Below, one piece after another: positions 14,214-49,500 of a DNA stretch of 64,000 nucleotides. The notes under the pieces were generated by a model, which saw only the letters and a program-made list of their open reading frames with translations, was not told the origin of the DNA and did not search any database. Positions within the stretch are counted from its first letter, which is position 1. Every line of letters begins with the position of its first letter. The stretch is from Haliclystus octoradiatus (lineage: Eukaryota > Cnidaria > Staurozoa > Stauromedusae > Haliclystidae), in assembly GCA_916610825.1 (NCBI GenBank), contig OU744451.1, positions 3,162,001 to 3,226,000 on the forward strand. Reading direction: 5' to 3'. The position numbers and the translations under genes were made by a program.

Positions 14214-23970
<9,757 letters not shown>

Positions 23971-24351: not shown

Positions 24352-24553
<202 letters not shown>

Positions 24554-27057: not shown

Positions 27058-30000
27058 TTATTTCAAGTCATAAGGCAAACCAAGAAATTGATCTGCAATT
27101 CTTCCAGCTTCTCGCAATCCACTCAACAACGCACCATGAACAGTAGCTGGATAATTACGAATTGTATGTTCCCCAGCAAAAAATAATCTGGGCATATTAG
27201 AACCAGGGTGACCATTTGGAGCTCCAGGATTTGGGGGTGCAGCTACTGGGGCAGCCATTAGATCATAGTCGTTACCAGATGAACCTGCTGCGACATAGGA
27301 ATAAGACCCACGTGACCATTCATCTGATTTCCAGCGTGTAACAATACTTTCTTTTGGCTGTGGAATTGAGAAATAAAAGGATGATCAATTTTCGAATGAT
27401 GTTTCAAGAAATTGAGTGGCAAAAACACTTCATTAATTTGTTTGTGTCAAAGCTTCAAACTTCATACAAAAGAAAAAAGATTTTTCCTAAATCCAATTCT
27501 GAAGATTCGAAATGATATTCGGATTTTCTCAAAACAAGTTCAGCAAAATTATTTATAAAACTTGAATCACGTTATCGATATTTACAGGGTTGATTCAAAA
27601 TGTTGGGGCCACTTGGATCATCGGCGGTCGCACGTACGCACCAATATTGAACAATAGAGTTCCTGCAGGCACATTTTTTTTATAATTCAAAGCATTCTTA
27701 ATTTAAGACCGAATAGAAGGTATATAAGGATGAAACTAATTACTCCATGTATAAACAAGGTCAGTTTAAATTGCTTGACCAGGAAAATTTCCGGTAAAAT
27801 ATGAGGCAAAAGTGTGTGGTCGCAGGCACTGCAAAATATTTTTGACTCCTGAAATTACTATTTTTGAAATTGTGAAAGTGACCACTATAGACATGTAGTC
27901 GCTTTATAGACGTGACCATTATAACGGGATTTATCGTACCTTGTTCGGTTTTACAAAATAATCATATCAAATCCAATCTATTGTCTGGCCGTATGATTAT
28001 AGAAACAAAAATGACCAGTGGGCTCTACACGCTTAGAGTAACGTGAGTGTTTCACGTTCGTTTTGCTTCTACCATGTTGAAATTTGAAATTTGAAACCAT
28101 GACAAAGCCATGATTGACATTGATCGTTGAATTTAATCCAAGCTTAATTCATGTTGAGCTCGTAGTTACCGGCGGTCAATGTTGCTTCTTTAAAGTGAGA
28201 ACATAATACAGTCAAGCCTGTTATAACGGTCACCTTTATACAACAGCCACCTGTCTATAATGGTCACTTTAGCAATGCCTAAAACAGTATTTTCTATTCA
28301 ATCAACCCTGTATATAAAGGTCACCTGCATATAGTGGTCAATTCATCTACCTCTCATAGCTTGCTGTTATATACAGGTTTCAGTGAAATACAAAACTCAC
28401 CGTAGGTACACTGTTGCTTCCATAAATGCCTTTTAAAACAGCCAGAGCTCTACCAACAATAACATCATCAGAATATGTTTCTAATTTATTAGCAGCATCG
28501 CCAGCAACCAAAGCTAACAATACAGGTGATTTATAAATACTCCAAAATAAGAATAGTTCACCACGATTGGCTGTTGTACTAGCCACGTGACCAAATAGAT
28601 TGGTATTAGCATCCCAAAAGACACGGTCAAAGCATAAAACAACCTAGATAAAGAAAATGTCACCTCATTATATCAGTTACCTGTTTATAAAGACCATTCA
28701 AAGAGCCTTTTAAATAGATATAATATAATAAATCAGTCAATACTTTCTATACAAAATCCGTCTTCATTGAAATATTTGATAATGATGATGACAGAATAAA
28801 AAAAATATGAATAATTATTTGTTTACTGTTACTCAAGATTCAGGCCGTATAACAAATTATCAAACCTTTTTATCCAATCAAAAGACTGTTCAATAATTGA
28901 ATAGAGTGTACAGTCAAACATGACATAGAGGCCATAATAAAAGACCTAAACTTTAATCATTATTTTTTATAAGCTTGATATGAATAACCAAAAGAATTCT
29001 GAATCTAGAAGTAAAAATACAAGAAGAACATATTTTCTCTATCTAAAGAAGAAATCTCCCAATATCCGGAATATACACTTTAAATTTGTAAAATGTTTCA
29101 AAGATAGGGGTAGATCACTGAAAATGCAACAGAAAGTTGACCGAAATTCATTAATTCATCAAAGTTTTAGCAGATCATGGACTTGCAAACATGCCATACA
29201 AAGTTCATGAATAGTTAATTGATACTTCATGAAAAACAAGCCTTCGGCTTGCGGCCTGCGCCCGGGGCCAGTCAGCCTTCGGCTTCCTCAAAGAGGTCGC
29301 TTCGCTCCCGTTAGTAGCCTGCAGTATGTCTTGTCAAAGAGAATGTCAATGAAACAAAATAGTCATGAGAAGGAATTAAAAATGCAGAACAACACTGATA
29401 ATTCATTTCAGTTTTGATAATTAATCGTTACTCTATTGTACTACATGTTTCAAATCAAATATATTTATAAATATGGGTCATCCATAAGTACATTTTATGT
29501 TGATTACATAGTTCAAATGAAATAAATATGGATTGTAAGTTAGGTATTGCAGTTAATGAACTTGTTTTCACAATGAAAGGCATTGGTATGTAAATATTAT
29601 TGCTGTGTCGGTTGAGTTAATCTCAGCATGAGTCATTGAGTGATATTGGTAATAACAACAGGTGATTCTGAAATTTGATACAGTAAATTACATAAATGAG
29701 AGACCCAAACTCTAATATTTTATCAACTTTAGCCAACTTCTCACAGAGAGGACACATGTCTATAATGGTCACCATTCACATACCTCATATAATAATGATT
29801 AAAGTAAACAATGTGTGGACACAGTGGACGTTGTCAATGTATGGCACATTATAAATGTACATTTCGACAAAGGGATAAAAGGCAGCTAAAATTCTAAATT
29901 ACAACTCCAATTTTGGATTTGTAGGCCTACAACTTACAACTGCTTGACGATTGAAAAGTACCACACCAATTCTCTGAATTTGTTTATTTGTTATGGGTCA

Positions 30001-33000
30001 AATCTCTGTGTGTGCTGTGTGGATAACACTAACAGAACAGAACTGCTGACATGAAACGGTGACACAGTAAATCTTTTCTTGCAACGAAGAACAGTTCATA
30101 ACAAATCAAGCTAATATTGGCGATTCAGTGACACAGTAATCTCTTTTGCCAACGATGACTTGATAACAAAGTAGGCTATTTGGGATTATGATACTTAAAA
30201 GAAAACTAAAAGTAACAATTGCCATCAGAGTCCTGTAAGCCCTCATGCAACAGGGTAAAAACCACGGTAAAAGTGACTTCGACAGACTTCACATGAAGCA
30301 TTTAAACATTTAAGTTGTAAAAGACTTACCGAGAATTGTGTCTTCTGTTTGTGATGTAAAATGGAGTATTGTTGGACCACTTCTCTTTCTAGGCATATTG
30401 GAATACTTTTGCAAAATATGATGAAACACTTTTACAAAATATTGGCAGCCACTAAAATAAAGCATGCTCTAAAATTCGTGATGTTGCTAGGCATGACGGG
30501 ATACACCAAGGAAAGCAGTTTATTTTCACATAACTTCCGTCGAAATATCACGATTTTGGAAATTTTAATCGCAATTTATGAGCAATTTATAGCATTTTAA
30601 ACTGTAAAAACAAAACGTCGGATAGCCAAAGGCCTATAGATGACCCAGAACCGTATAAGAAGTTTGGAAAGTGCTCTGCGGAAAAGGAGTTTAACAATAA
30701 TGAAACAATGGTGATTTGATCACCGACACGGTTTGCGTATTATTATTATTAATTAATTGAAAATGTACGAGTGCGAAATAACACACTTCTTTCACGAAAA
30801 AATTGACATTTTACGTTCATGAACTTAAGTAAATTGTACTTGATCTATTGCTGCCAAAGAAGGGGGCGCCAATCTGGGTTTGGCAGTGTCCCTTCCAGGC
30901 CTGCCCGTCCTTGGAGATTTTTTAGCCGTAAATTGATACAATACACTTTTTTACAGGCATTTGAAAAACAATACTCCATATATTATTGATTGTGAAACTT
31001 TTGAATCATATCAACTTTTTAAGGACTTTTTATGGGAAATTGGCATGTCTCTGTATACCATCGATATGAACAGGGTCCAACAAAAGGTTTGGCTTTTCAA
31101 ATGATCGAATCCTAGCGGCATTTCAACATTTTCTTCTGAATTGTTTTGTAGATGTTTGACCAATAAATTATTAAAAGTATCATTTTTTTCTGAATTTGCT
31201 TTAACCTTTCGGAATCTAGGATTTCCAGGATTCCTACTTTTGTCGGACCCTGCATATGAAGTTACCAACAGAAAGATTCTTGTTTCGCTAAATCTTCCAA
31301 ATCTTTCTGCTTTACCTTATTTAGATTACCAAATCCCATACGTTCCAAAGCCCCATTTTTCCATTCTGGTAATGATGGCGTGAACTGTACAGCTGCAGGT
31401 TGATGTTTTAGAACGCCGAGTGGTAAAGTAACAAGTACTGCATCGCCTTTGAATGTTTGTGTTGTATTTCCTGATGATGATGATGACGGATTGTTCACTG
31501 TTACAATTTCAACACCTAAAAAAACACAATTCAATATTATAATTTATCTGAAAAATATAGCGTAACCTGCAAGTCGAAAGCGTCAACAGTTTTCATTGCA
31601 ATTACCCAAATTGGTAGTTATCCAAAATTGATTAACAAGCACTTGACCAGAAAATAATTCATAGGGTTTCAGAGACAGGTTCCCCTGCGAAAAAAATCCA
31701 TGAGTTCATGAACAGTTTATGAACATTTGTTTGTGGGTTCATGAACAGTTCAGGAACAGTACATGAACAGTCACAAAGAGCTCATGAACACTTCATGAAC
31801 TGGTTCATGAACGTGAAATTGCCCAAACGTTCATGAACTTTTGGGCAATTTCAAGTTCATGAACTCATGAACTTTCTCTCGCAGGAGTAGGTTGCAGATA
31901 AACGGATATTTTACTTATCAGAATTGTACTCCTAAGCAGGTTACCAGTGCCAGACAAAAGATTTAGCCTTGCAGGAATCTTGAGAAGTTTCAACATTTTC
32001 TTCAAAATTGTTTGCTGAGACTTGGCCTATAAATCAGAAGTTTTTTTACCATTATTTTCTTTTTTGTTCTAGCCTTACAGCAGGTAGCATCACAGGATCC
32101 AACTTCTGTCGGACTTTGTAGGATTGTCGAGTGAGATTCATCTGCAAACGAGGCTCACATTCACAATCAAAATGTAGCAGAGGAACCTTGTGGTCCTATA
32201 AATTGGTGAGTCCTGGGGCAATTACCCCGCTTATTCCATCCCCTTCGCACCCTGGCATTATCCATAGATACTATGATTGAAATCCTGCATTTCTTCAGCA
32301 TTGCAATCAGGGTCCGACAAAGTCCGGAAACTTGGAAACCTAGTTTGCGGAAGGCTAGAAAAATTCAGAAGGTTAGCCAAAATGTTGGCTACAAAGCTAA
32401 CATGAAGCTTCGATTTTACGCTTAAATTATGTCAATAAAATTACTTAAACATTTTTCTAACGTTTATCTAACAATATAAGGTTTGCGGAAGGTAAAACAT
32501 TTTGTCGGACCCTGATTGCAATTATCTCATACCTGTGCGAGTATATTTGACATTTTTAGCGACAGTGCTTAATCGTATATCAAGACCCTCAGCTAACGCA
32601 CCAGGAACACATGAGTAACCATTACTAACTGTCATGTGACTACCAGTAAATTCAAAATCATCATCCTGGTCCCAATGTTTTAATGATAACGCTGTCAATG
32701 GTGTCGCATTAGCAAATTCTAAATTAGCGAAATGCCAATCAAGAATCTGACGATCACGAAGGGATAGATAAATATCACTGAAATTTGAAAACAACAAATA
32801 AAATATTAATTAATTACTACCCCTGCGAAACTTCATGAACAAGTTCATGAACTGGATTCATGAATAAGTTCATGAATAAGTTCATGAACTGGGTTCATGA
32901 ATAAGTTCATGAACTCTTTATGAATGTTCATTACTGTTCTTGACCAGATACATTAGAATTTGCCTGAATGCAGATCAAAATTCTCTTTTTTAGGATTGTA

Positions 33001-36000
33001 CCGTATAATTCCAAACATTTAAAAAGATTAATTCAAATACTGTTCAATTTTGAATGTTATACCTCCAACATAAACGTAAGATTTCATATCAGTAAAACCT
33101 GTTATAACAGCCACCTCTACAAAACGACCACCTCTATAAAGTGGTGACACTTGCAATGTTTAAAACCGAACTTTCTATTGAATCAACCTTGTATATAGAG
33201 GTCAGCAGCAGATAGTGATTCATTTATCTATCACGTATAATTTATCTACTGCTGGCTGTTATATACAGTTAAACCTGTTATAACGGTCACCTCTATAGAG
33301 CAGCCACCTGTCTATAGTGGTCACTCTTGCAATGTCTAAAATAATATTTTCTATTGAATCAAACCTGTGTATAAAAGCCACCTGTCTATAGTGGTCAAAT
33401 TATCTACCTCTCGTAGCTGGCCATTATATACAGGTTTCACTGTACAGGTTTCATATGAACCCATTAAGTAATATATTGCAAAATATTATGTACTTATTAA
33501 TGGATGAGTATTGCATCTTATTAAAGTGCATTGGTAAGATACCTCGGTGGGTTTTCTTCTAAATCTTGTACTCGCACTTCGCATTCCCTTTGTTTTTCAG
33601 CAAACGAATCGTATTCCTATACAAGAAAGAATTATAGAATCGTATTCCTATACAAGAAAGAATTATAGAATCGTATTCCTATACAAGAAAGAATTATAGA
33701 ATCGTATTCCTATACAAGAAAGAATTATAGAATCGTATTCCTATACAAGAAAGAATTATAGAATCGTATTCCTATACAAGAAAGAATTATAGAATCGTAT
33801 TCCAATACAAGAAAGAATTATAGAAGTTACGAGATTATGAAAGTAGGAGCAAAGAGAGACTTTTTGAACAAAAGCGTTTCGGGACAATCCCTGTGAAAAC
33901 AAGTTTAGCAGTTCATGAACGCTAGATGGTCCCAAATTTTCATGAACCGTCCCAGACAGTTCATGGGCAGTTCATGAAAATTTGGGGGCATTTAACGTTT
34001 ATGAACTGTTCATGGACTGTTTTTCATAGGGGTAAATAGATATGGTTGTATAAAATTACCAATGAATAGTTCTATGCAGGTATCAACATGGGTCAATTGA
34101 GAAATGCATAAATCAAAGTAGCACTTGGACAAAAAATCCTTACATGGAAAGAAAATTTTATGATTGCTTTTGTAAAATTCATCTTATTGAAATCTGATTA
34201 AAATAATTTATTCTATATGAAGTTAAAACAACTTACTCTGAATAAGTTACACACGTCACGCTGTTTGCTTCGTACTTCAAATTCATCTGTCACCTCCCTA
34301 ACAAGTAAATAGCAATACAAATTAATGAGGTTTAACGGTTTGGAATAGTTGCCTGGAAAACCCAGTGAATATCAATCAATGGTGATCAGGTGATGTATAG
34401 AACAACAGACAGAGAATGAAAATCAAAGGAATGAAATGAAATCACAATTACAGTGAAACCTGTATATAACAGCCAGTTACGAGAGGTAGATCAGTTGACC
34501 ACTATAAACAGGTGGCCTTTAAATACAGGTTTGATTCAATAGAAAATACTATTTGAGACATTGCAAGAGTGACCACTATAGACAGGTGGACTATGTATAG
34601 AGGTGACCGTTACAACAGGTTTGATTGTAACTGTAGGATCATTGTGAACAAGTTTTCCTAAAATTCTAAATAAATTTGCTGTAGATTTAAAAGAAGCATT
34701 TCACAAAAGAGTATTATAGGTTATGTTTTTATGATTTGGTTTGGAATTAATTGTGTTTTATTGTTGCCAATTTGTTTTTGAAAGGTTATTATTGCCTGGT
34801 TATCCGTTATCATGGTCCAACAAAATGTTTTACCGTCCACAAACCTCAATGTTTTCGATAAAATTAACTATGGATGAGTAATTTTAATGACATCATTTTT
34901 ATATTTTCTATTGAATTTTGATTTATATTCAACATTTTGGTATATTCCTTCTGAATTTTCCTAGCCATCCGCAAACTACGTTTCCAGGTTTCTGGACCCA
35001 GTCGGTTGTGATCACCTACCTAGGTTCGGCCTTTTCTTGTGCTGTCACCCATTTAGCATGAGTTTCTTTTATTGTACCTTGAATAACTTCCATCTATAAA
35101 TAAATAAAAAATCAATGTAGGATACATATGAATCTTCAAAATGTTGTTTATCAAATTTCGATTTAACTGAGGTGTATAATTTGCTTATTTGGCTGATTTA
35201 CTGCATCATTTGCTCATTTTTACCACAAACAATGACCACTGCACCCCTACGAAAAACAGTTCAGGAGTTCATGAACAGTTCATGTATGTTAAATGGCCCC
35301 AAATTTTCATGAACTGTCCATGGGAGTTCATGAACAATTTATGAACGTTAAATGGCCTTAAATTTTAATGAACTGTTCATGAACTGTCCGTGGGAGTTCA
35401 TGAACTGTTCATGAACTGCCCATGGGAGTTCATGAACAGTTCATGGACGTTGAATAGCCCCAAATTTTCATGAACTGTTCATGAACGTTTAATGGCCCTA
35501 AATTTAATGAACTGTTCATGAACTGCCCATGAGAGTTCATGAACAGTTTATAAACGTTGAATGGCCCCAAGTTTTCATGAACTGTTCATGAACTCCAATC
35601 GACAGTTTTCAAACTAAACTGTTTTTCGCAGTTGAGCTCCTATAAAATTCTGGGAACTTCAATACTCGATTTATTAAGCACTCTTGTGATTGGGCATACC
35701 ATACTTTTGGCTTGTGGCACCGTGTTTTGAAGTATCGTGGTCCTTTCATTGAAGTATATTGCTGGAAATAGGACCAGGATGATACCATGTGGAATATTTC
35801 TAATGCTCAAGTTCTGGCTCTTCATGCCAATTTAGATTTGAATGATAATATTTCTTATTATTAATGGCAAGTTTTTCTGAACCTGTTCTTGCTTTCTATT
35901 GGTTAATCAAACACTGACAATTCAATTTGTCTTCAAATTTGACGTAATAATCCGAGACAATAGGGTAGAGCTGGAGACAATCAGGTTGTGATAAATAGAG

Positions 36001-39000
36001 GTAGGGACAATAGCATCTCCAACCTTGCAGGACTGACGTGATGGAAAAAATCTGTTTTACAAATTTTTCACTTCTTAAAATAAAGATTAAGTAACAGAAG
36101 TGGGAATCTCCTGGGATCCTAGATCCCGGAAGGTTAGAGCCAATGCAGGATAATTCAAAAGAATATGGAGAACTTTCTGATTTATAGGTCAAACCTCAAC
36201 AAAAAATTCAGAAGAAAATATTGAAAATCTTTTAAGATTCCGGAAGATTGAGACTTATGTCGGACACTGAGCTATCAACTTTATTAGATACAAAAGATGA
36301 CAAAGAGGACAACGAAATACAGAGAATTCTTCATCTAGTCAAATTGTACTGTTCCCATTGAAGTTTATACAGAAATTTAGAGTTTACTCACTTGCTGTTG
36401 TACTGCTTCTAAACTTCCTTGTATATCAATGATTTTTTTAGCGTGTTCACATTGTTCTTCTTTGATTTGTTTTTGCATAAGTCTAAGTGATTAAAATATA
36501 ACAATAAAATTTCAAAAAACAACAGGCAGTTGTAGCCAACCTTGCGAAAAACAGGTCAGGAGTTCACGAACAGTTCATGAACGTTAAATGGCTCCAATTT
36601 TCCTGAACTGTTCATGAACTGTCTGTGAACAGTTCATGAACCCTCACAGACAGTTCATGAACAGTTCATAAGAATTTGGGGCCATGTAACGTTCAGAAAC
36701 TGTTCATGAACTCCTGAATTGTTTTCGCAGGGGCAGAGTCATCTATTTACAAGACTTGAGACACTCTCTCATGTGCCGCTGTCAACTCCAATTGGACAGA
36801 TGCCAGTCACGTGATTTTATGGGCACCATTTTTGTTCCGTAAAACCCAGGCTCGCCAAATTTGAACAAAGCATAGGAAAATAATATTATGATTTCAAAAA
36901 ACTTTTGTTCAAAGCAAAACCTTGTTTCAAATGGAACGAAAATAGATGATTTTGAGCACTAAACGTTGCGTGTCCCAACTCGAATAAATAGATGGATATA
37001 TTTCTGATTGATAGGTCAAGAAATATTTTGGAACAAAAACATTGAAAAACGTTCTCGGATTTCGGAAGGCTAAACCTCTTGTATGACACTGGGTTATCTC
37101 AGATTCTTGTACAAAAAATACAAATAATGGTAAAGGTTAGTTTATTTTATGTAGCATTATTCTATGTGCATTTATGTGGCGACAGTAATTTTAATATTAT
37201 ATCACGGTGAATTGAAAAGTTCATCATTTGGAGGTGATAGTTTATAGTGACAGTTTTGTTAAAAGCCCTTGCGAAAAACAAGCATTAATCAAATAAAGTG
37301 ATTCTTAATGATGTTGATGGTGTTGTTTTTATTACCAATATATCCAATATTACAGGATGTGTGATAACTAGGCTATATATAAGTTATTATGTATCACAAT
37401 TTCTATACATCATGATGATGATGATAACGATAATGGAACTGCTCATGGTTGTATTAAAAGGGGCAAAGATGACTGGTGAGCTCTACGCGCTTAGAGTCAC
37501 GTGCATGTTTGTCTTTCGTATTGTTTCTGTGCCTAAACCCATGTTGAAACTGAAATTTGAAGCAATGATTGACGTTTGATTGTTGAATTTACGCTAAGCT
37601 TAATTCAAATTGAGCTCGTAGCAACAGCAAGTCAATGTTGATCCTTTAAATCGATCAGTATTTGACTTACTTGATAACAAGTTCTAATGCATGCCCCAAA
37701 GACAATGGTTTTTTGTTTAAATAATTGAAATCAAGAACATGAGATAGATATGATGTAGCTTCCAAAAGACGATTGAATTCACGTTCAACCATTTCATCTT
37801 TGTAGCGAGGAACCTACATAAATCGATATCAATATACAACATTAACCTAGTTCATATGTTTAACGGAAAAGTAGCTCAGAATATTGTATCCATGTGCGAA
37901 AAAAAGTCATTCTAAAAAAGACAGCTATTAATATTATGAGAGTCACATCTAGATGACACTGTGATCAATGCTACTTTCTGAGTTTATGAACTGGTTCATG
38001 AACTTGAAATTGCCCAAATTTATGTGGACACTTCATGAATACTTCATGAAATTTTCCTGCTGAAATCATGAGCTGGTTAATGTATGTGAGATTGCTCAAA
38101 TTTCCGTGAATACTTCATGAGAAGTTTTTGATTGTTTTAATCTGAGTTCATGAACAGTTCATGAAAAGTTCATGGACCAATTGGGGAATTTCATGTTCAT
38201 GAACATGCATCATGAATTGCAAACAAAAATATGAAGAACACACAAGTACGCAACATTGCAGCCTTGGTGTAGTGGCTAGGGTGTTAGACCACGGCCCGCA
38301 GGGTCTCGGGTTCAATCCCTGGCCGGAGCACTATAGGTTGGCGTCAGGAAGGGCATCCGGCTATTAAACACATACAAGCTTCAAAATACTAACAAATTAA
38401 CCAACCACCCCGGTGAAAAAAAGCTGCAAGCTTACCCGGTTTGTGGATAAATGATAAATCCAAAAAACGAAACAAAACAAAAAACATAAGGTTGAACAGA
38501 AATGACCATTAACAAATACGGATACACAAAATATATTACATACAATTTGTCCATTTGATTCATAGAGCGGACATTTCTGCCGTATTTTATGCAATTCAAC
38601 ATCAACCTGATTACTTATGATAGTCAATGGATTTCCACCTGAAATTTAATGTAAAAATTCAATTAATTATTTGAATTAATCATTGTATACGTATGTGAAT
38701 AAAATAACATAATTGTAAGAAAGGTTTTTCAGATTATATCTCACCAAGCCCTGTCAGCACCATGGCTCCAAGATCAGCTATGAATGGTCCACGTTTTGCA
38801 GTAGCGACACGTCCACCAACTCGGTCCTAAAATAATTGAATATAGTTGCTATGAATATTTCAAATGAAATCATAATGAAAGTCATGTTAATCAATCAATC
38901 TTTGTAAATCAGTCACCCAATAGAAGACTACACAGCGTAGAAAACAGGCACACAACAAAGGGCATAACAAGAAGAGCTTTAAAGAGCTACTTCAGAGAGC

Positions 39001-42000
39001 TGTAGAGTAATAATGATGTATAAAATTAACACATGACTCAGTCGATTCAGAAATTAACTTATTATGCTGTACAGTGAAACCTGTTTATACCAGCCAGTCA
39101 TGAGAGGTAAATGAATTGACCACTATGTGCAGGTAACCTTTATATACAGGGTTGAAGCCATAGATAATACGATTTTAGACATTGCAAGAGTGACCACTAT
39201 AGACAGGTGGCCGCATTATAGAGGTGACCGTCATAACAGGTTTGACTGTATATGCATAAGAGAATATGATATGTTAGGGAACTCCTTCAAGTTGAAATCA
39301 TCATCGTCATCATCAACAACACCAAAGTTAAAATCAGTCAAACATGAATTCTGCAATTGCCGGTGGAATGCATTGCTGAAGATTGCGCTTCTTCAAAAAC
39401 TGTTTCTGCTTTCAAGCAGTCTTTAAATAATGTCAATCTAACCACCCCTGCGAAAAAAGTTCAGGAGTTCATGAACAGTTCATGAACATTAAATGAAATG
39501 GCCCCAAAATGAACAGTTCATGAACAGTTCAGGAAAATTGGAGCCATTTAGCGTTCATGAACTGTTCATGAACTCCTGAACTGTTTTCGCAGGGGCAGTA
39601 TTACACTATCGGTACTGACTTAGTCTCAAATAAGCAGCATAATCAACCTTTCAAGATACTTATTATAATATTATAGGAAGGATTACATAGGATGGCAGGG
39701 TTAAGATCTGATCATATCTAATTGACTGTGGCTCAAACCCTGTTAAGATCTGTTCGATCATGTCTGATAAAGGGCATTCATAATCATTGCTCTTAGCAAA
39801 AAAGAACCGCTCATCTAGAAATAGAAGCGTGATTCGGGCACCTCGGGAAAGGCGATACCGTCTCAATTACAACTATTCTAATATTCTTATCTAAATCCTT
39901 TTTGTATAACAATTTTGTGACATTAATTATGAAAAATGTCATGCTTTGATTGACATAATGTTGATTGACATAATAATAATGTATGAATTTGTATGTCGTA
40001 ACATATTTGTTGAATTGATGAATTAATACTTACTCTCGCCTCTAATACAACCACATCACATCCAAATGATTGCAGTTGTCTAGCAGCCATTAAACCTGAG
40101 ATACCAGCACCCACAACAACAACTTTTGGTGCACATTTTACTAAAAACAAATATTCAAAATTCACACTACATTATTTTACAGTATATAAGTGACCATTAT
40201 TATAGAAGGTTTGACTGTATACCAGTCTTTTTGATGTCAGATAATTACATAAGCATGTGTTTAGATTTTCTAGATACAATATAACTTACGTTGAGGTGGT
40301 GGTTGAATGGTTGTGTATAAACCAAAATTGATTGAGCCATAGCGTTCCAAAAACGAGAGAATACGTTGAATTAACTTTTGATCATCTGAAATAAAAATGT
40401 TCAGTAAATTTATGCACATATGCACAGTAAAGTTTTCTAAATTGTTGCATGCAGTAGTAAAAAGTAATGTAGACGGTGTCGCCCTACCGAAGGCACCCGT
40501 ACCACTCCTCTCTTTCTAGATGGTTGTTTTTTTTTTATCTGAGAGCAATGATTTTAAACGCTCTTCAGTTGATCTCAGCTGCGACACTGCAGATCAATGG
40601 CAAAAGATTCCATAGCAGATATATCTTGATTGTCAATGTGCAACGATGCGCAGCAGCTGAATACATGCAGTAGGACATAGGTTAACATTGTCCCTGTACC
40701 TAACTGTTTCTAACCAATAGGGGTATGTGCATAAAACAAATATTGCTGTTTTTCTACACTGGTCTTGAAATATCACCAAAAAATACCCTATATAACAATA
40801 GACCAAGCGCCACAGAACTAAAACGGCAGGTTTCTCCGGGCAACTTGAAAATCGCATAAAAGTGTTCATAATAACATGCTAAACAATTACATATTTCTTG
40901 TTTTAATTAAATTCTATTGTAAAACCTTCAAAAATCCAATTTGTATTTCATGATTCATGGTCAAAGCCTTCTTATCATTTTTAGAAAATGCTGCATGTGA
41001 GCTTCATGGTCTTTGATTCTTTTGTTCTCCCAAGATTTTGCGAAACCATAGCAGCATGACGAAAACACAAAATGTATTGATCAAGAGGCTCTGACTGTTA
41101 AATGATTTATAAATTCATCTCTGGTGAGCTCCACAATAAAATTTGACCAAAACAAGGAATAGGTAATTGTTCAGCACATTTTTATGAACACTTTTATGTG
41201 ATTCTCAAGTGGCCCAGAGAAATCTGCCGTTTTAGTTCTGTGGCGCTTGGTCTAGAAGTTTCATCGGTATTTTCCAAGAGATGTGATAATTATGAGAGAT
41301 ATAATAAAGAATTTATCAGGATTTGTTGCGCTTCCAGAACGATTTCCCACATCATCTCTGTTTGGTTGATTGGTTGTGATTAAAATTGGCAGAGATGAAA
41401 CACGCCAGTAGCAAAGCGCCACCAATAATTAATATCCTGGGTTTAATAATTATCTGTCATTGTTTCTAGCTACTAGCTTACCATTATAATTAGGATCGAT
41501 TTTTGGAAATGCTAGAGACATTGTCAGTTGTTGTCTAGGCGATTCAATCCATAGTTGAAGCTAAATATCAAAACATAATAGTTGGTATATACTAGGTACA
41601 TCCAAGGTCCGACAAAAGTAGGAATCTTGCAATCATAGATTCCGGAAGATGGAATTTTTATGATTTATTGGTCAAACCTAAATTGGTAAGATTTATTGCC
41701 GTATATTATAATAGTAAAGCCCACAAAAATAGCAGGAAACTGTGAGAGCTGGATACATTGATTGCTATATGCAGACGACCTTTATAGACAGGGTTGACTC
41801 AACAGAAAAATACTATTTTAGACATATCTAGGATGAACAATACAGACGTTGGCTATACCTACCAGTCTATTTCTTATGTAAAGGAATTTCTTTTGAATGT
41901 GTGGCGGTGCCTGGGATACATCTTGAAAACATGATGCCTCTTGAGCGGTGAGACGATCATGCGGTAATCGACTGGCAAATGCAGCCCCTTCCAAAGCTGA

Positions 42001-45000
42001 AAAAAACATTGCTAATGTATAAAATAATAATAGCCTACTACCGGTAATGTTTTAGTTTACAAAATAGTAGTTGAGATAGTAGGTGAGTAGTTTGCCTTCC
42101 GAGATTCCATCTTTTTCTTCTAAATTTTTTCGGATGATTTCACCATGTAAACGTTTTCATAACTTTTTATTTTACGATTATCGTCAAAAAAAATATGATA
42201 AAAACTGCACAGCATTACTTTCCTATACAAGAAAAGAAAGCAAACTTGAATTCAACTATTTCTTCCACTTCCTTCTGAATTTTTGCTAGCCTTATGTGAC
42301 TCTCAGTCCCAGAATCACCCCTTTTACCGCACATTAAGACAAAGACGCAAAGACTTGAAGTTTTGTGTTTTATATGACTATCAGTCAGATACCATTCACA
42401 GCATTCAAATGAATCTATGCTGAAGATTACATAGAGCATATAACCTTGCATAAGACTTCAAGTCACAGTAAGAGAAGAATATGTAGCTTTGACTTAAGCC
42501 TAACTGATCAACGTATTATCAATGATGTGTCAAACATTAGGAAATAAATATATAAAACAGTCAAACTCAGTTAATATCCCCTAGATTTAATGTCCCACCT
42601 TGTTATTCCCACATAAAAACTGATTTCTATTTTCCAATTTCTATGCAAACTCTCATAATTCTACCTCGCTTAATGTCTCACTTTTCATCTGTAGTTCAGA
42701 GGGGGGACATTAAGCAAGTAGGCTACATAATAGGTTTGGTAACTTCATCAGAAATACATACTTTGAGCTGATAATCTCAGAACTTCAATTGGATCTACAA
42801 AAATCAAATCCATTTATTCAAAAATGAGAAAAATTAAAAACCGTAGATTAATAAATTATTTGCACAAATGTATGTAGCCTAGAAAAGCTCGATGTTTGTT
42901 AAACCATAGCCTGTGCGCAGATCCCATTTTTTTTTAGATTAGTAGGGTGTGCGTAATATCGACAGAAAGGCTGCGCTGGATTGAATTAGTAGGAGTGGCT
43001 AAACATGAGAAATCAATTGTTCCTCTATTGTTACTGTCACCCATTTTACTGCAAAAAAAAAGATTTGGGTCTACGCGCAGGCTCGTTAAACAACATCATA
43101 AATAGATTGACACCAAAGGCAAGGCAATGAATTTTCCCTGACATTGAAAGTCCGAGGCCTGGTTCATATGCCGTTCTGTACATGAGCCAATCCTATTCTG
43201 GTTGAGAACGCCTTCAGATGGACTACATCATAAACAATTTGGTTTCAGATACCGTTCCAAGCATTTCACGCGAGAATTCACATCTGATGAAGGCGTTCAG
43301 AAAGGGTTAGCAGGTGGTCGGAACGCCTGAACACAATCCAATTATTGAAGGTGTTCTAATTCGTTTCATACGCCGTTCTGAAGTTGATCTTTGAATTTTG
43401 GCTAGAGCATAATATGATCGTCATATATACAGAACGGCGTATGAACCAGGCCTGAGTTTCCATCTGAGTCATCATGGCTTCCAATAGATACCTTATGTTT
43501 GATTTTCTTATATTCTTTAAACGCAACGAAATGAATGCAAGTTTTAATCAAGCTAGTTTTGCAGCTTTCGATTTTTCGAGATCAAATTTTATCATGTATT
43601 GTTTTTAAAAATTTAGGCCTAGCCTTCAGATATCTAGACAATTGAAAATACAATTTCAGACATTGCTAGAGTGAAAACTATAGAGAGGTGACTGCTGCAT
43701 TAGAAGTGATTGTTACAACAGGCTTGACTGTAGCCTATAAATGGTTCACTTTCACTGACCAACAGGATGAGTATCTTCATCTTCTTCAATTTCTTCATTA
43801 ACGTCAGGCCCAGTTGAAGGAGCAGGAATAGGTTTATTTGAGCCATTTGTCATTGAGTTTAATTCGGCATTGGCAGTCATTGCTAAAAGCGACATTCCAC
43901 TTTCCTCTTCTGACATTTCTTCGTCTGTTAAATTTACAAGTTTTTCATCCACTTCTGAGTATTCTACCTGAATTGAAATTGACATCACATATTAGGCCTA
44001 GATTAATTGTTATGCTGTATATTAGCTGCGCCAAATTCTAACGGCTCTACTTCGCTGAGCCGTAAATGCCATGTTATCACAAGTTGTGCCAAAATAGTTG
44101 AGTCTAGATTTTGTGGATTTCATTTTTAGGCTAATCTTTTCGAGGAAGAATATTAGGCCTATAGGAAATTCTCAAAGCACAATTTTAAGAAGAATTCAGT
44201 TTCAGTAGCAAGGCAACTTTTGAGGCATCATTTTATTCATTTTATTTACTCACGTTCTGTTTGGTAGGCTCACAATTGTTGGGATTACGTTAGGCTACAT
44301 TAAACATCATTTTATAGAATACTGAACAATGTTGCCTCATACTTAGGTGCAGAGGGCTGAGTATGTAGGCGACCACGGTCACTAAGGGAAGGATCTAGCT
44401 TGTCTAATTGTGGGCTATAAAATCAACTGTACAATTAAATGGTAACAAAGAATGGTTAATTTGTATTTCAGCGATACTCTCCTTAAGGCCCAAGCAAACA
44501 ATCCAACTTTGTTGGTTCGACTTTGTCGGATGCAAAAGTCAAACGTTATTGGATGCGTGGGCAATCTGTTTTATAACCAACTGCATACAACTTTTATTTA
44601 AATCGTATATTTATTCGACCTGAATGCGTATTAAAAACTATTCAAATCCTACATGTCATCAAATATGAAAAGTTGAAGGAGACAAATAATTTAAAATGAG
44701 CATTGGCCTAAATTTTATATACTTTTTGTGTTTAGCTTTTGAATTAAACGTTTCTGATATCCTTATTGTTTACAAATTCTTAGTATTTTTGATTCAGAAC
44801 GATCGACTAATCCAAAGTCAACATGAGAAAAATTCAACCGGAAAGTATTCTAACTATTGCGTCTGCGTATCTACGCTTGCTTTCAATGTCCCAGACATCT
44901 CCGGACATAAAAATCTCATAAAATTCCTCAGCATCCGTCTGATTCTCAAAAAGCTTTTGAATTCAGTAAAAATCTTTTTCAGCCCGTTGGACTAGTCGAG

Positions 45001-45705
45001 ACAGCAATTATCACCCATTATCGACCATCCAACTAAGTTGACTGCATGGGCAAACGGTCCAACTTTCGAAATGACAGTTGAAACGTTTTCTTGGGCCTTT
45101 ACTTGAACATTCAGTACATTTTTGTCACTGTTACATGTGCTTTTAGTAGTCTAGCGTATTATACTAGCTTTTTAGGCCCTAGCCTGCTAGGCCTATCTAG
45201 TTCGAGTCCCAATATATAGTATATCATACGTTGAACAGTTAAAGTATTAACATAATTATAGCAATTCAATTACACGATGCCCCGAGATATGACTATAGGC
45301 AGTAATTCGGCTCTAACTTCAAAGTCCAATTTAGATAACATCATTGCTTTATTCGTGACTTAAAAGCTGAAACCAATTTGTAAAATTTATGGAATAAAGA
45401 AAATATAGTTACTTTTGTAATTGAAATATTTTATTTCTGGGGCTCGCAACATCATGTTATGCTTTGATTTTCAGAGCGTCTAAAGATAAGAAATGTTGAC
45501 ATAAGTGATATTATGCTTGTTGTTTTTCTGAGTATAGAAAGCATAGCTATACCTTAGCTTTTTTTCTTCTGCTTCGTCTTGAATTTGCCTCAGACTCCGT
45601 TTCTTGTAAATTTAACAATATGTTTTGATTTTGGACCACAGCCTCACTGGCTGGCGTTTCAGTAAACTCTGTTGGTTCTGTTTTAATAATATCAGGCTCA
45701 CTCAT
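27058..45705 (-). CDS. KDM1A: Lysine-specific histone demethylase 1A (17 exons, 794 aa)
   Basis: FAD-dependent amine oxidase that demethylates H3K4me1/2 in CoREST complexes. Exons in gene order: 45705-45553, 43967-43760, 41996-41863, 41560-41482, 40385-40290, 40140-40034, 38826-38745, 38638-38544, 37813-37671, 36482-36392, 35093-35020, 34297-34237, 33616-33543, 32777-32533, 31515-31316, 28643-28401, 27357-27058. All are GT-AG with consistent phases. Domains: nuclear signal [10 protein letters not shown] (residues 42-51), an acidic stretch, SWIRM from about 121 ([14 protein letters not shown]), FAD motif GAGISG at 234-239, an inserted Tower coiled coil at about 355-465, and amine oxidase lobes. 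FGNLNK ends at the catalytic-type lysine, residue 614 (human K661), exactly at an exon end. The C-terminus has [19 protein letters not shown]. The disordered N-terminus is shorter than in the 852-aa human protein. Confidence 0.98.
28009..28195. mobile_element. Dispersed repeat family E copy
   Basis: Shares AAAAATGACCAGTGGGCTCT, a CATGTTGAAA block and AAGCTTAATTCA...GAGCTCGTAG...GTCAATGTTG with a copy at 37453-37650. Weaker relatives are at about 2965-3140 and 17531-17650. Type is uncertain. Confidence 0.55.
28209..28385. mobile_element. MITE family A copy next to KDM1A exon 16 donor
   Basis: Begins CAGTCAAGCCTGTTATAACG after TA and ends ATATACAGGTTTCAGTG. Its end lies about 15 bp from the 5' splice site at 28400 (minus strand). 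Confidence 0.85.
31071..31252. mobile_element. hAT-like MITE family C copy (KDM1A intron 15)
   Basis: Ends CAGGGTCCAACAAAAGG and CTTTTGTCGGACCCTG. The flanks GATATGAA and CATATGAA match in 7 of 8 positions and look like an aged 8-bp duplication. Confidence 0.85.
31560..31947. mobile_element. MITE family B copy interrupted by a family D insertion
   Basis: The outer parts (31560-31680 and 31888-31947) align with the family B copy at 5711, including ACTTGACCAGAAA and GTTGCAGATAA. Between them sits a family D palindrome (31682-31887). The sequence AGGTT occurs on both sides of the insert where other family B copies have it once, suggesting a 4-5 bp target duplication. Confidence 0.75.
31948..32121. 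mobile_element. hAT-like MITE family C, decayed copy
   Basis: Left GCCAGACAAAAGATTTAGCC and right CTTCTGTCGGACTTTGTA match the family ends with several changes. It directly abuts the nested family B/D block. Confidence 0.65.
32308..32514. mobile_element. hAT-like MITE family C next to KDM1A exon 14 donor
   Basis: Ends CAGGGTCCGACAAAGTCC and CATTTTGTCGGACCCTG. A perfect 8-bp duplication ATTGCAAT flanks it (32300-32307 and 32515-32522). The 5' splice site of exon 14 is at 32532, only about 10 bp from the insertion. Confidence 0.92.
32820..32937. mobile_element. Palindromic MITE family D, partial (KDM1A intron 13)
   Basis: Starts CCCTGCGAAACTTCATGAAC and continues with TTCATGAA units spaced by AAG or TGGG. 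The right terminal CGCAGGG is missing. It sits 43 bp upstream of exon 14. Confidence 0.75.
33090..33265. mobile_element. MITE family A, older copy of a tandem pair
   Basis: Begins CAGTAAAACCTGTTATAAC and carries more changes than the copy that directly follows. The two share the TATATACAGT junction. Confidence 0.8.
33266..33442. mobile_element. MITE family A, younger copy of a tandem pair
   Basis: CAGTTAAACCTGTTATAACG to ACAGGTTTCACTG with TA on both sides. It inserted at or next to the end of the older copy, as expected for a TA-targeting element. Confidence 0.85.
33606..33822. repeat. Tandem array of a 3' splice site, 7 x 31 bp
   Basis: On the minus strand each unit contains TTCTTTCTTGTATAG followed by GAATACGATTC, that is, the pyrimidine tract and acceptor AG plus the first bases of KDM1A exon 13. 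The copy nearest the exon supplies the inferred real acceptor (exon starts at 33616). Five further copies keep the AG (alternative exon starts at 33647, 33678, 33709, 33740 and 33771). The most distal copy has AG changed to TG. Any upstream choice shifts the frame or, with three extra units, meets a stop. Confidence 0.95.
33889..34032. mobile_element. Palindromic MITE family D copy (KDM1A intron 12)
   Basis: CCCTGTGAAAACAAG at the left and TTTTCATAGGGG at the right around GTTCATGAAC-type repeats and AAATTTTCATGAACCGTCC. Confidence 0.8.
34451..34627. mobile_element. MITE family A copy (KDM1A intron 11), TA-flanked
   Basis: CAGTGAAACCTGTATATAAC to ACAACAGGTTTGATTG, flanked by TA. It is in the orientation opposite to the 785 copy. 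Confidence 0.88.
34813..35007. mobile_element. hAT-like MITE family C, decayed copy near KDM1A exon 11 donor
   Basis: The left end TGGTCCAACAAAATG matches the family; the right end is rearranged (CTGGACCCAGTCGG). It ends 10-20 bp from the 5' splice site at 35019. Confidence 0.6.
35244..35632. mobile_element. Palindromic MITE family D, expanded double-length copy
   Basis: CCCCTACGAAAAACAGTTC to ACTGTTTTTCGCAG encloses about four inverted modules of GTTCATGAAC separated by CAAATTTTCATGAACTG and TTAAATGGCCC. It is about twice the length of the simple copies, implying internal duplication. Confidence 0.8.
36093..36270. mobile_element. hAT-like MITE family C, decayed copy (KDM1A intron 10)
   Basis: Contains GGGATCCTAGATCCCGGAAGG and ends TTATGTCGGACACTG. 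The left terminal CAGGGTCCGAC is eroded. Confidence 0.65.
36541..36733. mobile_element. Palindromic MITE family D copy (KDM1A intron 9)
   Basis: CTTGCGAAAAACAGGTCAGG and GAATTGTTTTCGCAGGGG are the ends. The core is nearly the same as that of the 17291 copy, including CTCCAATTTTCCTGAACTG. Confidence 0.85.
37453..37650. mobile_element. Dispersed repeat family E copy
   Basis: GGGGCAAAGATGACTGGTGA at the left and AAGCTTAATTCAAATTGAGC with GTCAATGTTGATCC at the right, parallel to the 28009 copy. It lies just outside KDM1A exon 9. Confidence 0.55.
37978..38215. mobile_element. Palindromic MITE family D, degenerate copy (KDM1A intron 8)
   Basis: Several TTCATGAAC units with AATTGCCCAAATT and GGGGAATTTCATG blocks. 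Terminal CCCCTGCGAAAA sequences are not recognisable. Confidence 0.6.
38256..38480 (+). mobile_element. SINE-2, tRNA-derived with GTCAGGAAGGGCATCCGGC motif
   Basis: TGGTGTAGTGGCTAGGG fits a tRNA A box and GGTTCAATCCC fits a B box 43 bp on, so a pol III promoter is visible. It is followed by GCGTCAGGAAGGGCATCCGG, a block I recall from the 3' part of several animal SINEs. The 3' limit is uncertain. Antisense inside KDM1A intron 8. Confidence 0.8.
39072..39248. mobile_element. MITE family A copy (KDM1A intron 6), TA-flanked
   Basis: CAGTGAAACCTGTTTATACC to AACAGGTTTGACTG, with TA on both sides. Confidence 0.88.
39444..39595. mobile_element. Palindromic MITE family D, compact copy
   Basis: The ends CCCCTGCGAAAAAAGTTC and GAACTGTTTTCGCAGGGG are the best-preserved terminal inverted repeats of the family in this window. 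The interior is short. Confidence 0.85.
39655..39870 (+). mobile_element. SINE-1 copy (KDM1A intron 6)
   Basis: GGATGGCAGGGTTAAGATC, GACTGTGGCTCAAACCC (decayed B box), TCATTGCTCTTAGC and CTAGAAATAGAAGCG, ending GGGCACCTCGGGAAAGGCGA and CCGTCTCAATTAC, which is the family tail. Confidence 0.75.
40462..40660 (-). mobile_element. SINE-1 3' half (KDM1A intron 4)
   Basis: In reverse complement it shows the body and the tail GGTACGGGTGCCTTCGGTAG, GGCGACACCGTCTACATTAC, then TTTTT. The tRNA-like head is replaced or lost. Confidence 0.75.
41606..41690. mobile_element. hAT-like MITE family C, left-end fragment
   Basis: AAGGTCCGACAAAAGTAGG, ATTCCGGAAGATGG and TTATTGGTCAAACC match family C. The right half is absent. 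Confidence 0.65.
41725..41860. mobile_element. MITE family A fragment abutting KDM1A exon 3 donor
   Basis: AGACGACCTTTATAGACAGG, CAACAGAAAAATACTATTTT and AGACAT match family A. The recognisable part runs to within a few bases of the 5' splice site at 41862. Confidence 0.6.
43157..43451. mobile_element. MITE with 25-bp inverted ends GCCTGGTTCATATGCCGTTC
   Basis: The left end GCCTGGTTCATATGCCGTTC and right end GAACGGCGTATGAACCAGGC are inverted with one mismatch over about 25 bp. The interior repeats AACGCCTTCAG-like blocks. The first bases resemble the foldback at 58465. No clear target duplication. Lies in KDM1A intron 2. Confidence 0.8.
43631..43735. mobile_element. MITE family A fragment near KDM1A exon 2 donor
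   Basis: AGACATTGCTAGAGTGAAAA and ACAACAGGCTTGACTGTAG match the right half of family A. It ends about 24 bp from the 5' splice site at 43759. Confidence 0.7.
44486..45098. mobile_element. Harbinger-like non-autonomous element, TTA-flanked
   Basis: The left end AGGCCCAAGCAAAC is mirrored at the right by GTTTTCTTGGGCCT. TTA flanks both sides (44483-44485 and 45099-45101). GGCCC ends with a TTA duplication fit the PIF/Harbinger superfamily. It is 613 bp with no transposase. Lies in KDM1A intron 1. Confidence 0.7.
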
Positions 45706-46581: not shown

Positions 46582-49500
46582 ATGAATCAATTCAAGCCTC
46601 AAAGTGTATTATATCATATTTTGTTAATGATATCATGGTCTCTATGTTGCCAGTATGTTGATCATTCAAGTTCAAGTAACACAGGTGAGCCATGCTAAAT
46701 CATAATAAAATGCTTGCTATACCAAATGATACAGGATCATTCCACGTCAATTCACAAACAAACAAAAACACGACCCTCTCAGAATTTTTTAACACTTATT
46801 TTACAAAGCATCATCATCATCATCATCATTTATTCAGAACCTGATAAGTTTTACAATAGCTTTTTTTCACAGGACTGATTTACGTAATAATATAGAGAAT
46901 AAACATAAAATAATTGATTACAATAATACATAGATATATGTAGCCTACAGCTGCAAGGTTAATTAAATACAAAACTTAACAGTTATTAGATGCTGTAATT
47001 TTATTGGTATTTAAATGCTTCTCAAGGAGACTTTTGAAATTTTTCCTTTTGGAAACTTCCTTCATTGTAGACGGTAGATCATTCCACTTATGAGCACCAG
47101 CATATTGAAATGAGTGGCGATGGCTTGACTTGATGTATATGTCATTATGGGTGTGAGATCTTGTCTTGGTCCTATTTGGTTGTTGAAATATATGGGAGAG
47201 CAGAGGAGGAGCTAGATGGAATTTTAGTTTGTGAGTGAGCATTAGTTGGTGTGAGGTTATTCTGTCTCTGACAGAAAGCCAGCCAAGCCGACTTTGCTGA
47301 TCAGAGATTCGAGTGCGATAATTACAACGGAGTACTGCCCTCATTCCTCTGTTTTGTAATCTCTGGAGGCGGTCAAGATGTTGGACTTTGCAATTCCCCC
47401 ATGCGACAGCGCAGTAATCAAAGTGTGGCAAAACAATAGAGTTATAAATTAATTGAGCTGATTCTTGCGGAATGAAACGTCTTATGAATTTGAGGACACC
47501 CAACCCTCTATTGATTTTCTTAATTATGCAATCAATATGGTCATCAAATAGCAGGTTTTCATCGATTAAGACACCTAAATACTTCAATAAATACACACGC
47601 TTAACAGGTTCGTCATTCAACTTCACTTGAAAATCATGGTTTGCATCTTGTTTTTTCAAGTTTGGTTTAGTGCCTATCATCATACAATTTGTTTTAACGA
47701 CATTTAATGTTAGTTTATTGGCACATAGCCAGCCGTAGATTTGGTTCAAGTCAGTTACTAAGGAATGTTCAATAATATTTACATCTTTTTACAATTATGT
47801 ACAGAATCAGAAATATCATTTATATAAATTAAAAATAGTAATGGCCCAAGGATCGATCCTTGAGGAACGCCATCTTTTATTGTAGGCCTACCTAAATTAG
47901 AATTAGTATTATTTATATTTACAATTTGTTTTCTATTTATTAAATATGATCTGAAAAAATTTAAGCTATTTTCATCACTACCGTATAATTGTATTTTTTC
48001 CAATAAAATATGAAAATTTACAGTATCAAAAGCTTTTTTTAAGTCAATGCTGACTACACCTATTAATTTATGATTAAATATATTATCGTAACAAAACTCT
48101 GAAAAGTTTAAAGTGCTAGTATCTGTTGAGTGATTTTTACGAAAACCATATTGAACTGTTGTGAGTAAATTATGAAGAGACAGATAATGGTTAAATTGCA
48201 TATATAGGCCTACAGCTTTTTCTAAAAGTTTCGAGATAACAGGGAGTACGGAGATTGGGCGATAGTTTGTTCTCTCGGTGATGGTATCTCCCTTGTGCAA
48301 TGGAGAAACCTTAGCAGTTTTGAATGCCTCCGGGAAGACACCACTACTGAGAGAAAGGTTAAATATTTTTGTTAAGGACGGTGCAATACTGTGCGCCGTT
48401 AGTTTCAAAATGCGCGTTTCGATTTGGTCAATACCAACCGACTGTTTTTGGGGAAGTTTAAAAATTAAGTGTTCCGTGTCTGAGTTCGAAATTAAACTAA
48501 ATTTAAATTGATTTGCTAGAGTGTGTATATTTGATACAGAATTTAAATAAGTTTTTGCTAAAGTAATTGGGTTGTAGTTATCTAACGATGGAATTAATGA
48601 GGCTAATTTGCTTGGTATTTCTAAAAAGTACCGTAACTATTAAATTCATTTGCTATTGTTAATGTATTCGTAATAGGTTTATCATCTATATTGATTTCAT
48701 TGATATTTACATTTTTTCTCTTGTTTGGTAATAATTGTTTTAAAAACTTCCACATTTGTTTTGGATTTTGTTTTGTTTCTAATATATTTTTACAATAATA
48801 AGTTCTTTTGCATAGCCTAAAATACTTTGTAAATTCATTTCTAGAATGCTTAAATAAATTAAAAAATGTTATGTCTTTAGTCCTAATAAATAATTTGTGG
48901 TAGTTGTCACGCTTATTCCTCAACATAATAGCATGATCATCTAAATAAATATGGTGGCTCCTTGATTTGATTCTAATTTTCTTGAGAGGAGCAAACTGAT
49001 TCACAATGGTGTTAAACAAGGATTGCCAAGCATAGTATGCCTCGTTCACATCCGTGAAATAATCTAGGAATTCCCAATTAGTTTGTTGTATGGCCAGATT
49101 AAGTGACTGTGTATCTAAATTTTTGTAATTGCGTATTAAGGTAAGTTTGTGGTTATGTACAGGTTTATGAGAAATAGTGTTATAAACTAAATAGTTCATT
49201 TGGTGATCAGCCAATATATCGAAAGTGACGCCTGCTTTGATTTGATCGCTGTCTAGATTAGAAATGGCTAAGTCAATGCAGGTGGACGATGAGCCGGTTA
49301 TTCGTGTAGGGGATATAATGTGTTGATCAAAACTGTTTTCTGTTAGGATTGAGGTTAACTTCCTTGTTAAGGATGAATTGATATTTAGTGTGTTCATATT
49401 AAAATCTCCTAAAATTACGCGTGATTTATTGTTATGGTCTAAATAATCTAAAAAATTGGAAAATTCGTCTAGATAATCTATGTGTGCGTGTGGATGTCTA

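Follow-up and report, generated by a model that had tools for sequence, protein, structure and literature searches.

Minisatellites that lie across an intron-exon boundary have been described in amphioxus as mirage minisatellites, in the globin genes BflGb6 and BflGb9 and in Adh3 and TnC (PMC3087553). The Adh and TnC cases appear likewise in a second report, which adds PGBD5 as similar (PMC3902484); Canestro et al. 2002 is cited there. As described in these two reports, the mirages neither disturb splicing nor give aberrant mRNAs. Two human systems are related. Intron 18 of ABCA7 contains a VNTR of 25-bp repeats, each with a splice-site signal, beside an exon (PMC5954066), and human duplicated genes are described as containing variable internal tandem repeats with units averaging 30 bp, some of them at exon-intron boundaries (PMC2812944). 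As to how one acceptor is taken among several, a scan that starts at the branch point and takes the first AG has been reported for mammalian introns whose branch point is distant (PMC1431707, where Smith et al. 1989 and 1993 are cited for AG scanning and competing 3' splice sites).

Here we describe an array of acceptor copies in the KDM1A gene of the cnidarian Haliclystus octoradiatus. It lies in a window of 64,000 nucleotides, by which we mean the whole stretch of DNA that was analyzed. The window lies on chromosome 6 of the assembly jrHalOcto1.1 (PMC9975415). The relevant features, with the evidence for each in brackets, are the following:

27064..45678, minus strand: KDM1A gene, coding extent by human homology; beyond 43970 a weak match (E 6.1) (tblastn, spliced alignment)
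34237..34297, minus strand: KDM1A exon 12 (spliced alignment)
33617..34236, minus strand: KDM1A intron 12, 620 nt, with donor AGA/GTAAGT (spliced alignment)
33826..33841, minus strand: candidate original branch points TTCAT (A at 33838) and GTAAC (A at 33827) (motif)
33823..33825, minus strand: TTC, identical to the end of every unit and likely the microhomology of the first duplication (TRF, flanks)
33792..33822, minus strand: unit 1, the distal one, which reads TG for AG and has no acceptor (unit table)
33637..33791, minus strand: units 2-6, five identical acceptors giving premature stops if used (unit table, translations, scores of 5.5)
33606..33636, minus strand: unit 7, exon-proximal, the sole acceptor giving an open frame; the intron ends at 33617 (translation, LSD1 alignment, spliced alignment)
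33543..33616, minus strand: KDM1A exon 13, 74 nt, coding for 24 residues plus two bases of the next codon, its first 11 nt in unit 7 (translation, LSD1 alignment, spliced alignment)

Read on the minus strand from 33822 to 33606 and cut into units, the sequence consists of seven head-to-tail units of 31 bp (7 x 31 = 217 bp). Each unit contains the 20 bases of the intron end, TATAATTCTTTCTTGTATAG, followed by GAATACGATTC, the 11 bases with which KDM1A exon 13 begins; the tandem repeat hence spans the exon-intron boundary, and unit 7 runs into the exon. Units 2-7 are identical. The single substitution in all 217 bp changes AG to TG in unit 1 (33822-33792), the outermost unit and the one farthest from the exon, removing its acceptor and leaving six AGs in the array. 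It is by this one change that the edge unit deviates from the uniform inner units 2-7. TRF reports the array at 33606-33825, with 7.1 copies, 99% matches and a score of 433; its three extra bases are a TTC directly before unit 1, identical to the last three bases of every unit. Such an array cannot have arisen by chance. The first-pass annotation had claimed a seven-fold copied KDM1A acceptor at 33606..33822, which unit cutting and TRF bear out to the base. Its 31-bp unit with intron end, acceptor AG and first 11 exon bases is confirmed in the unit table, and so are the six remaining AGs and the TG of the most distal unit.

Repeats are a usual site of assembly error, and one published amphioxus mirage was misassembled in a draft genome (PMC3087553). 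An artefact in which the copy number was inflated or collapsed is nevertheless extremely improbable here, given HiFi sequencing of 12-20 kb fragments to 68-fold coverage and a QV of 56.6 (PMC9975415) against an array of 217 bp, and given that array DNA matched one place in the genome in a search that skips very common words. With this one genomic match and an exon belonging to KDM1A, we rejected an unrelated repeat as the source. When the window was compared with the array unit, allowing up to one mismatch, a single hit fell outside the array: at 42234 (minus strand), upstream in KDM1A, TTTCTTGTATAGGA is a 14-base exact match.

By tblastn with the human protein, KDM1A lies on the minus strand between 43970 and 27064, and a further weak match is at 45678-45550 (E 6.1). 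A spliced alignment of that protein, for which coordinates were not supplied, gives 17 introns, two of low confidence near the N terminus, and puts intron 12 (phase 0) at 34236-33617 and exon 13 at 33616-33543; all introns are homology models. The protein of exons 12-14, spliced at unit 7, aligns end to end and without gaps to human LSD1 (E 3e-58), whereas its match to KDM1B reaches only 4e-10, making KDM1A/LSD1 the closer relative by similarity. The Pfam domain Amine_oxidase was matched in three of the six window ORFs scanned, and the exons are colinear with those of human. When the same protein was searched against the whole genome, with the best candidates scored, it matched four places: the three exons of the gene itself and, on another contig, a 41% match that is probably KDM1B. 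No second close copy of KDM1A was found among the candidates scored. The number 13 given to the exon in the first-pass annotation holds only where the weak N-terminal exon near 45.6 kb is taken as exon 1 and, in addition, a low-confidence exon near 42.3 kb is omitted. In the same assembly, the COX1-bearing contig shows 8 in-frame TGA codons. COX2 on that contig stays equally open, with 249 aa, whichever of codes 4, 5, 9 and 13 is applied; we take its AGA and ATA codons to be best read as arginine and isoleucine, that is, code 4, as in cnidarians.

What an acceptor of the array would yield depends on its position. That of unit 7 leads into an open frame, and exon 12 joined to it continues GAATACGATTCGTTTGC in the predicted mRNA; joined to an upstream unit, it continues GAATACGATTCTATAAT. 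The acceptors of units 2-6 add 155, 124, 93, 62 and 31 nt, respectively. Unit 6 (+31) is out of frame and meets a stop in exon 13 just past the array; unit 5 (+62) is also out of frame, with a stop toward the end of exon 13; unit 4 (+93) stays in frame yet runs into two stops within the array, where translation from units 2 and 3 ends as well. The stop is premature for all five and precedes later junctions, with four modelled introns lying downstream. The earlier claim that only the exon-proximal acceptor is productive is upheld by these translations. The open frame and the human colinearity suggest that unit 7 must be usable.

We consider it likely that the array is a 'mirage'-type minisatellite, a young product of slippage, in which the last copy, adjoining the exon, does the work. 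Slippage or unequal exchange between two TTC triplets would have doubled a 31-bp stretch with the whole acceptor (a possible branch region, the pyrimidine tract, the AG and 11 exon bases), and amplification to seven copies would have followed. The TTC before unit 1 is what a first duplication between two such triplets, 31 bp apart, would leave. Since the exon start is part of every unit, whichever copy adjoins the exon re-creates the original acceptor, and the coding sequence is unharmed. Splicing would then take place mainly at unit 7, from a putative branch point in units 6-7, and the exon-proximal choice would probably be aided by exon 13 and its donor. The upstream acceptors would be passengers, whose use would lead to a premature stop and probably to decay.

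The competition of six identical acceptors, with early stops for every upstream choice and introns still to come, may also be read as leaky or regulated unproductive splicing, in which a sizeable share of KDM1A transcripts joins units 2-6, stops early and is degraded, so that the array would reduce or adjust KDM1A dosage, perhaps through its copy number. We consider this unlikely. That the sole substitution of the array removes an AG hints at selection against the upstream acceptors: for a random hit, the chance of striking the AG of unit 1 is 2/217, and it is 12/217 when all six AG positions that are non-productive are counted (post hoc, n=1). One substitution is no statistic, however; homogenisation also spares edge units in an amphioxus mirage (PMC3087553), and the absence of aberrant mRNAs in the amphioxus reports (PMC3087553, PMC3902484) also speaks against a leak. 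It would be a distinctly improbable case that the array serves as a copy-number rheostat, the number of units varying between animals or cells and setting the fraction of KDM1A transcripts destroyed via upstream acceptors, with the loss of the outermost AG reflecting selection on the leak.

The first-pass annotation had seen a paradox in this arrangement, in that scanning from a branch point should favor the first AG. We compared AG distances and acceptor scores in modelled introns of KDM1A (17) and EEF2 (9). Of these 26, 23 were used; the array intron and two low-confidence KDM1A introns (43893 and 42228) were left out, and intron 45552, next to a weak exon, was kept. The nearest AG upstream of the acceptor lies at a median distance of 40 nt, and at 31 nt or less in seven of the 23 introns (6/22 without intron 1, that is, 45552). 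Each unit could therefore act as a self-contained acceptor. To judge from these models, branch points in this genome probably often fall within the span offered by one unit; the AG of the preceding unit would then be no necessary obstacle, and the AG belonging to each unit could be selected from a branch point within that unit or directly ahead of it. The paradox, as put, is thus not supported, a spacing of 31 nt being ordinary. In sum, the array is real, its kind has already been named, and its splicing situation is less paradoxical than first claimed.

Acceptor strength and branch motifs do not by themselves decide among the six. Splice signals are carried by most units (the AG by six of seven), and the unit acceptor scores 5.5 bits on the matrix of 23 modelled acceptors, whose native leave-one-out scores range from 0.1 to 12.7 with a median of 6.0. 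The six acceptors are identical over positions -20 to +11, and no difference within that span marks unit 7. Matrix scores alone do not decide use, because the highest score in intron 12 falls outside the array: at 33891 (minus strand), upstream, lies the acceptor-like TGCTAAACTTGTTTTCACAG/GGA, with 7.2 bits against 5.5. Splicing at that site would carry translation on into the array, where all three frames contain stops. The exact branch motif YTNAY is absent from the unit and from two joined units; it is likewise absent from 6 of the 23 native introns at -15 to -46. By estimate, YTNAY is expected often by chance in AT-rich introns. With the motif absent from the unit and its chance occurrence frequent, we rejected YTNAY as the decider.

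Just upstream of the array, the motifs TTCAT and GTAAC are candidates for the original branch point, lying 35 and 24 nt, respectively, from the G of the lost unit 1 acceptor and 66 and 55 nt from the AG of unit 2. The first AG scanned from either would therefore be that of unit 2, and the message would be ruined. If this branch point were still in use, with scanning to the first AG as in mammalian introns whose branch points are distant (PMC1431707), transcripts would be mostly non-productive and the allele harmful or recessive. We hold this to be very improbable: barring rescue by the other haplotype, it would leave an animal taken from the wild with a disabled chromatin gene for which no second close copy was found, and in other modelled introns a branch point within about 31 nt seems to be enough (7/23).

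Predicted folding gives unit 7 no privilege either. The array region folds somewhat better than shuffled sequences (z -2.0; 1 of 100 shuffles as good), and a two-unit stretch may form a hairpin, TTCTATA / TATAGGA, around the pyrimidine tract. In four contexts, the predicted probability that the AG is unpaired is 0.00 in units 2-7 alike; predicted openness of the pyrimidine tract is 0.24-0.43, and greatest in unit 2. Unit 7 being no more open than units 2-6, we rejected RNA structure as the selector. The explanation by a mirage-type minisatellite with a working last copy must therefore be weighed against the lack of a local difference or folding advantage of unit 7, the absence of YTNAY from the units together with upstream candidates that point to unit 2, and the better-scoring acceptor-like site at 33891.

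Minisatellites are frequent in the 244 kb sampled. Counting arrays with a period of at least 10, at least 3 copies and at least 90% matches, we found that they cover 4095 of 243,988 bp (1.7%) of the window, 17 sampled stretches and the EEF2 region. The 26 modelled introns have 52 boundaries, of which about 0.9 should fall inside an array in the absence of constraint; one of 52 did. Since the window had been chosen for its array, this comparison shows only that array and boundary can coincide without any special mechanism. A second array of the boundary type was not found among the 9 further arrays in the 244 kb: none of 10 flanking ORFs, out of the 18 (40 aa or more) touching these arrays, matched Pfam at E 0.01.

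Other repeats are present in the window. Palindromic TTCATGAAC repeats are numerous in KDM1A introns at 31703-38174, where they also form short arrays, and related copies of an element (AACCTGTTATAACAGCCACC...), recognized by eye, flank exon 13 at 33086-33406 and about 34450-34620. A 67-bp minisatellite lies at 17732-18141 (6.1 copies, 100% matches), a TAT run at 18618-19148 (176.7 copies) and an ATA run at 24353-24553 (67.0 copies). Two adjoining ORFs at 46976-48636 (minus strand) make up a predicted retroelement upstream of the first KDM1A exon found: the ORF at 47779-48636 matches RVT_1 (E 7e-22), and the other has no Pfam match.

Six identical acceptors, set apart by position alone within a gene whose function is needed, amount to a clean natural test of 3' splice-site choice, one that distinguishes the first AG, a local branch point and exon proximity as the decider. 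Older experimental constructs with duplicated or competing 3' splice sites ask the same question, namely which AG is joined, and the KDM1A array is a natural sevenfold version in an endogenous gene. In ABCA7, an isoform keeping one repeat unit shifts the frame, as joining at unit 5 or 6 of KDM1A would; there, however, the repeats carry a donor signal and isoforms were measured, whereas the KDM1A units carry an acceptor and exon sequence (PMC5954066). The repeats of human duplicated genes are tied to new introns or lengthened exons (PMC2812944), in contrast to the unchanged productive exon of KDM1A.

On the sequence features compared, the KDM1A array fits the mirage minisatellites. Like BflGb6, it consists of copies of an acceptor plus the start of an exon; as in amphioxus, inner units are uniform and an edge unit deviates, and many but not all copies have splice signals. 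Its 31-bp unit falls within the 10-72 bp range of the Adh3 mirage (PMC3087553). Among the open-access matches listed, most of them from queries not specific to cnidarians, no cnidarian mirage was seen. The host here is a cnidarian and the gene a different one; a structure described in amphioxus is extended to one cnidarian species. Six of the seven KDM1A acceptors are intact and identical, whereas BflGb6 units are less uniform (81-100%; PMC3087553). Finally, the amphioxus reports cover splicing outcome and length variation, and the KDM1A array is known from one assembled sequence.
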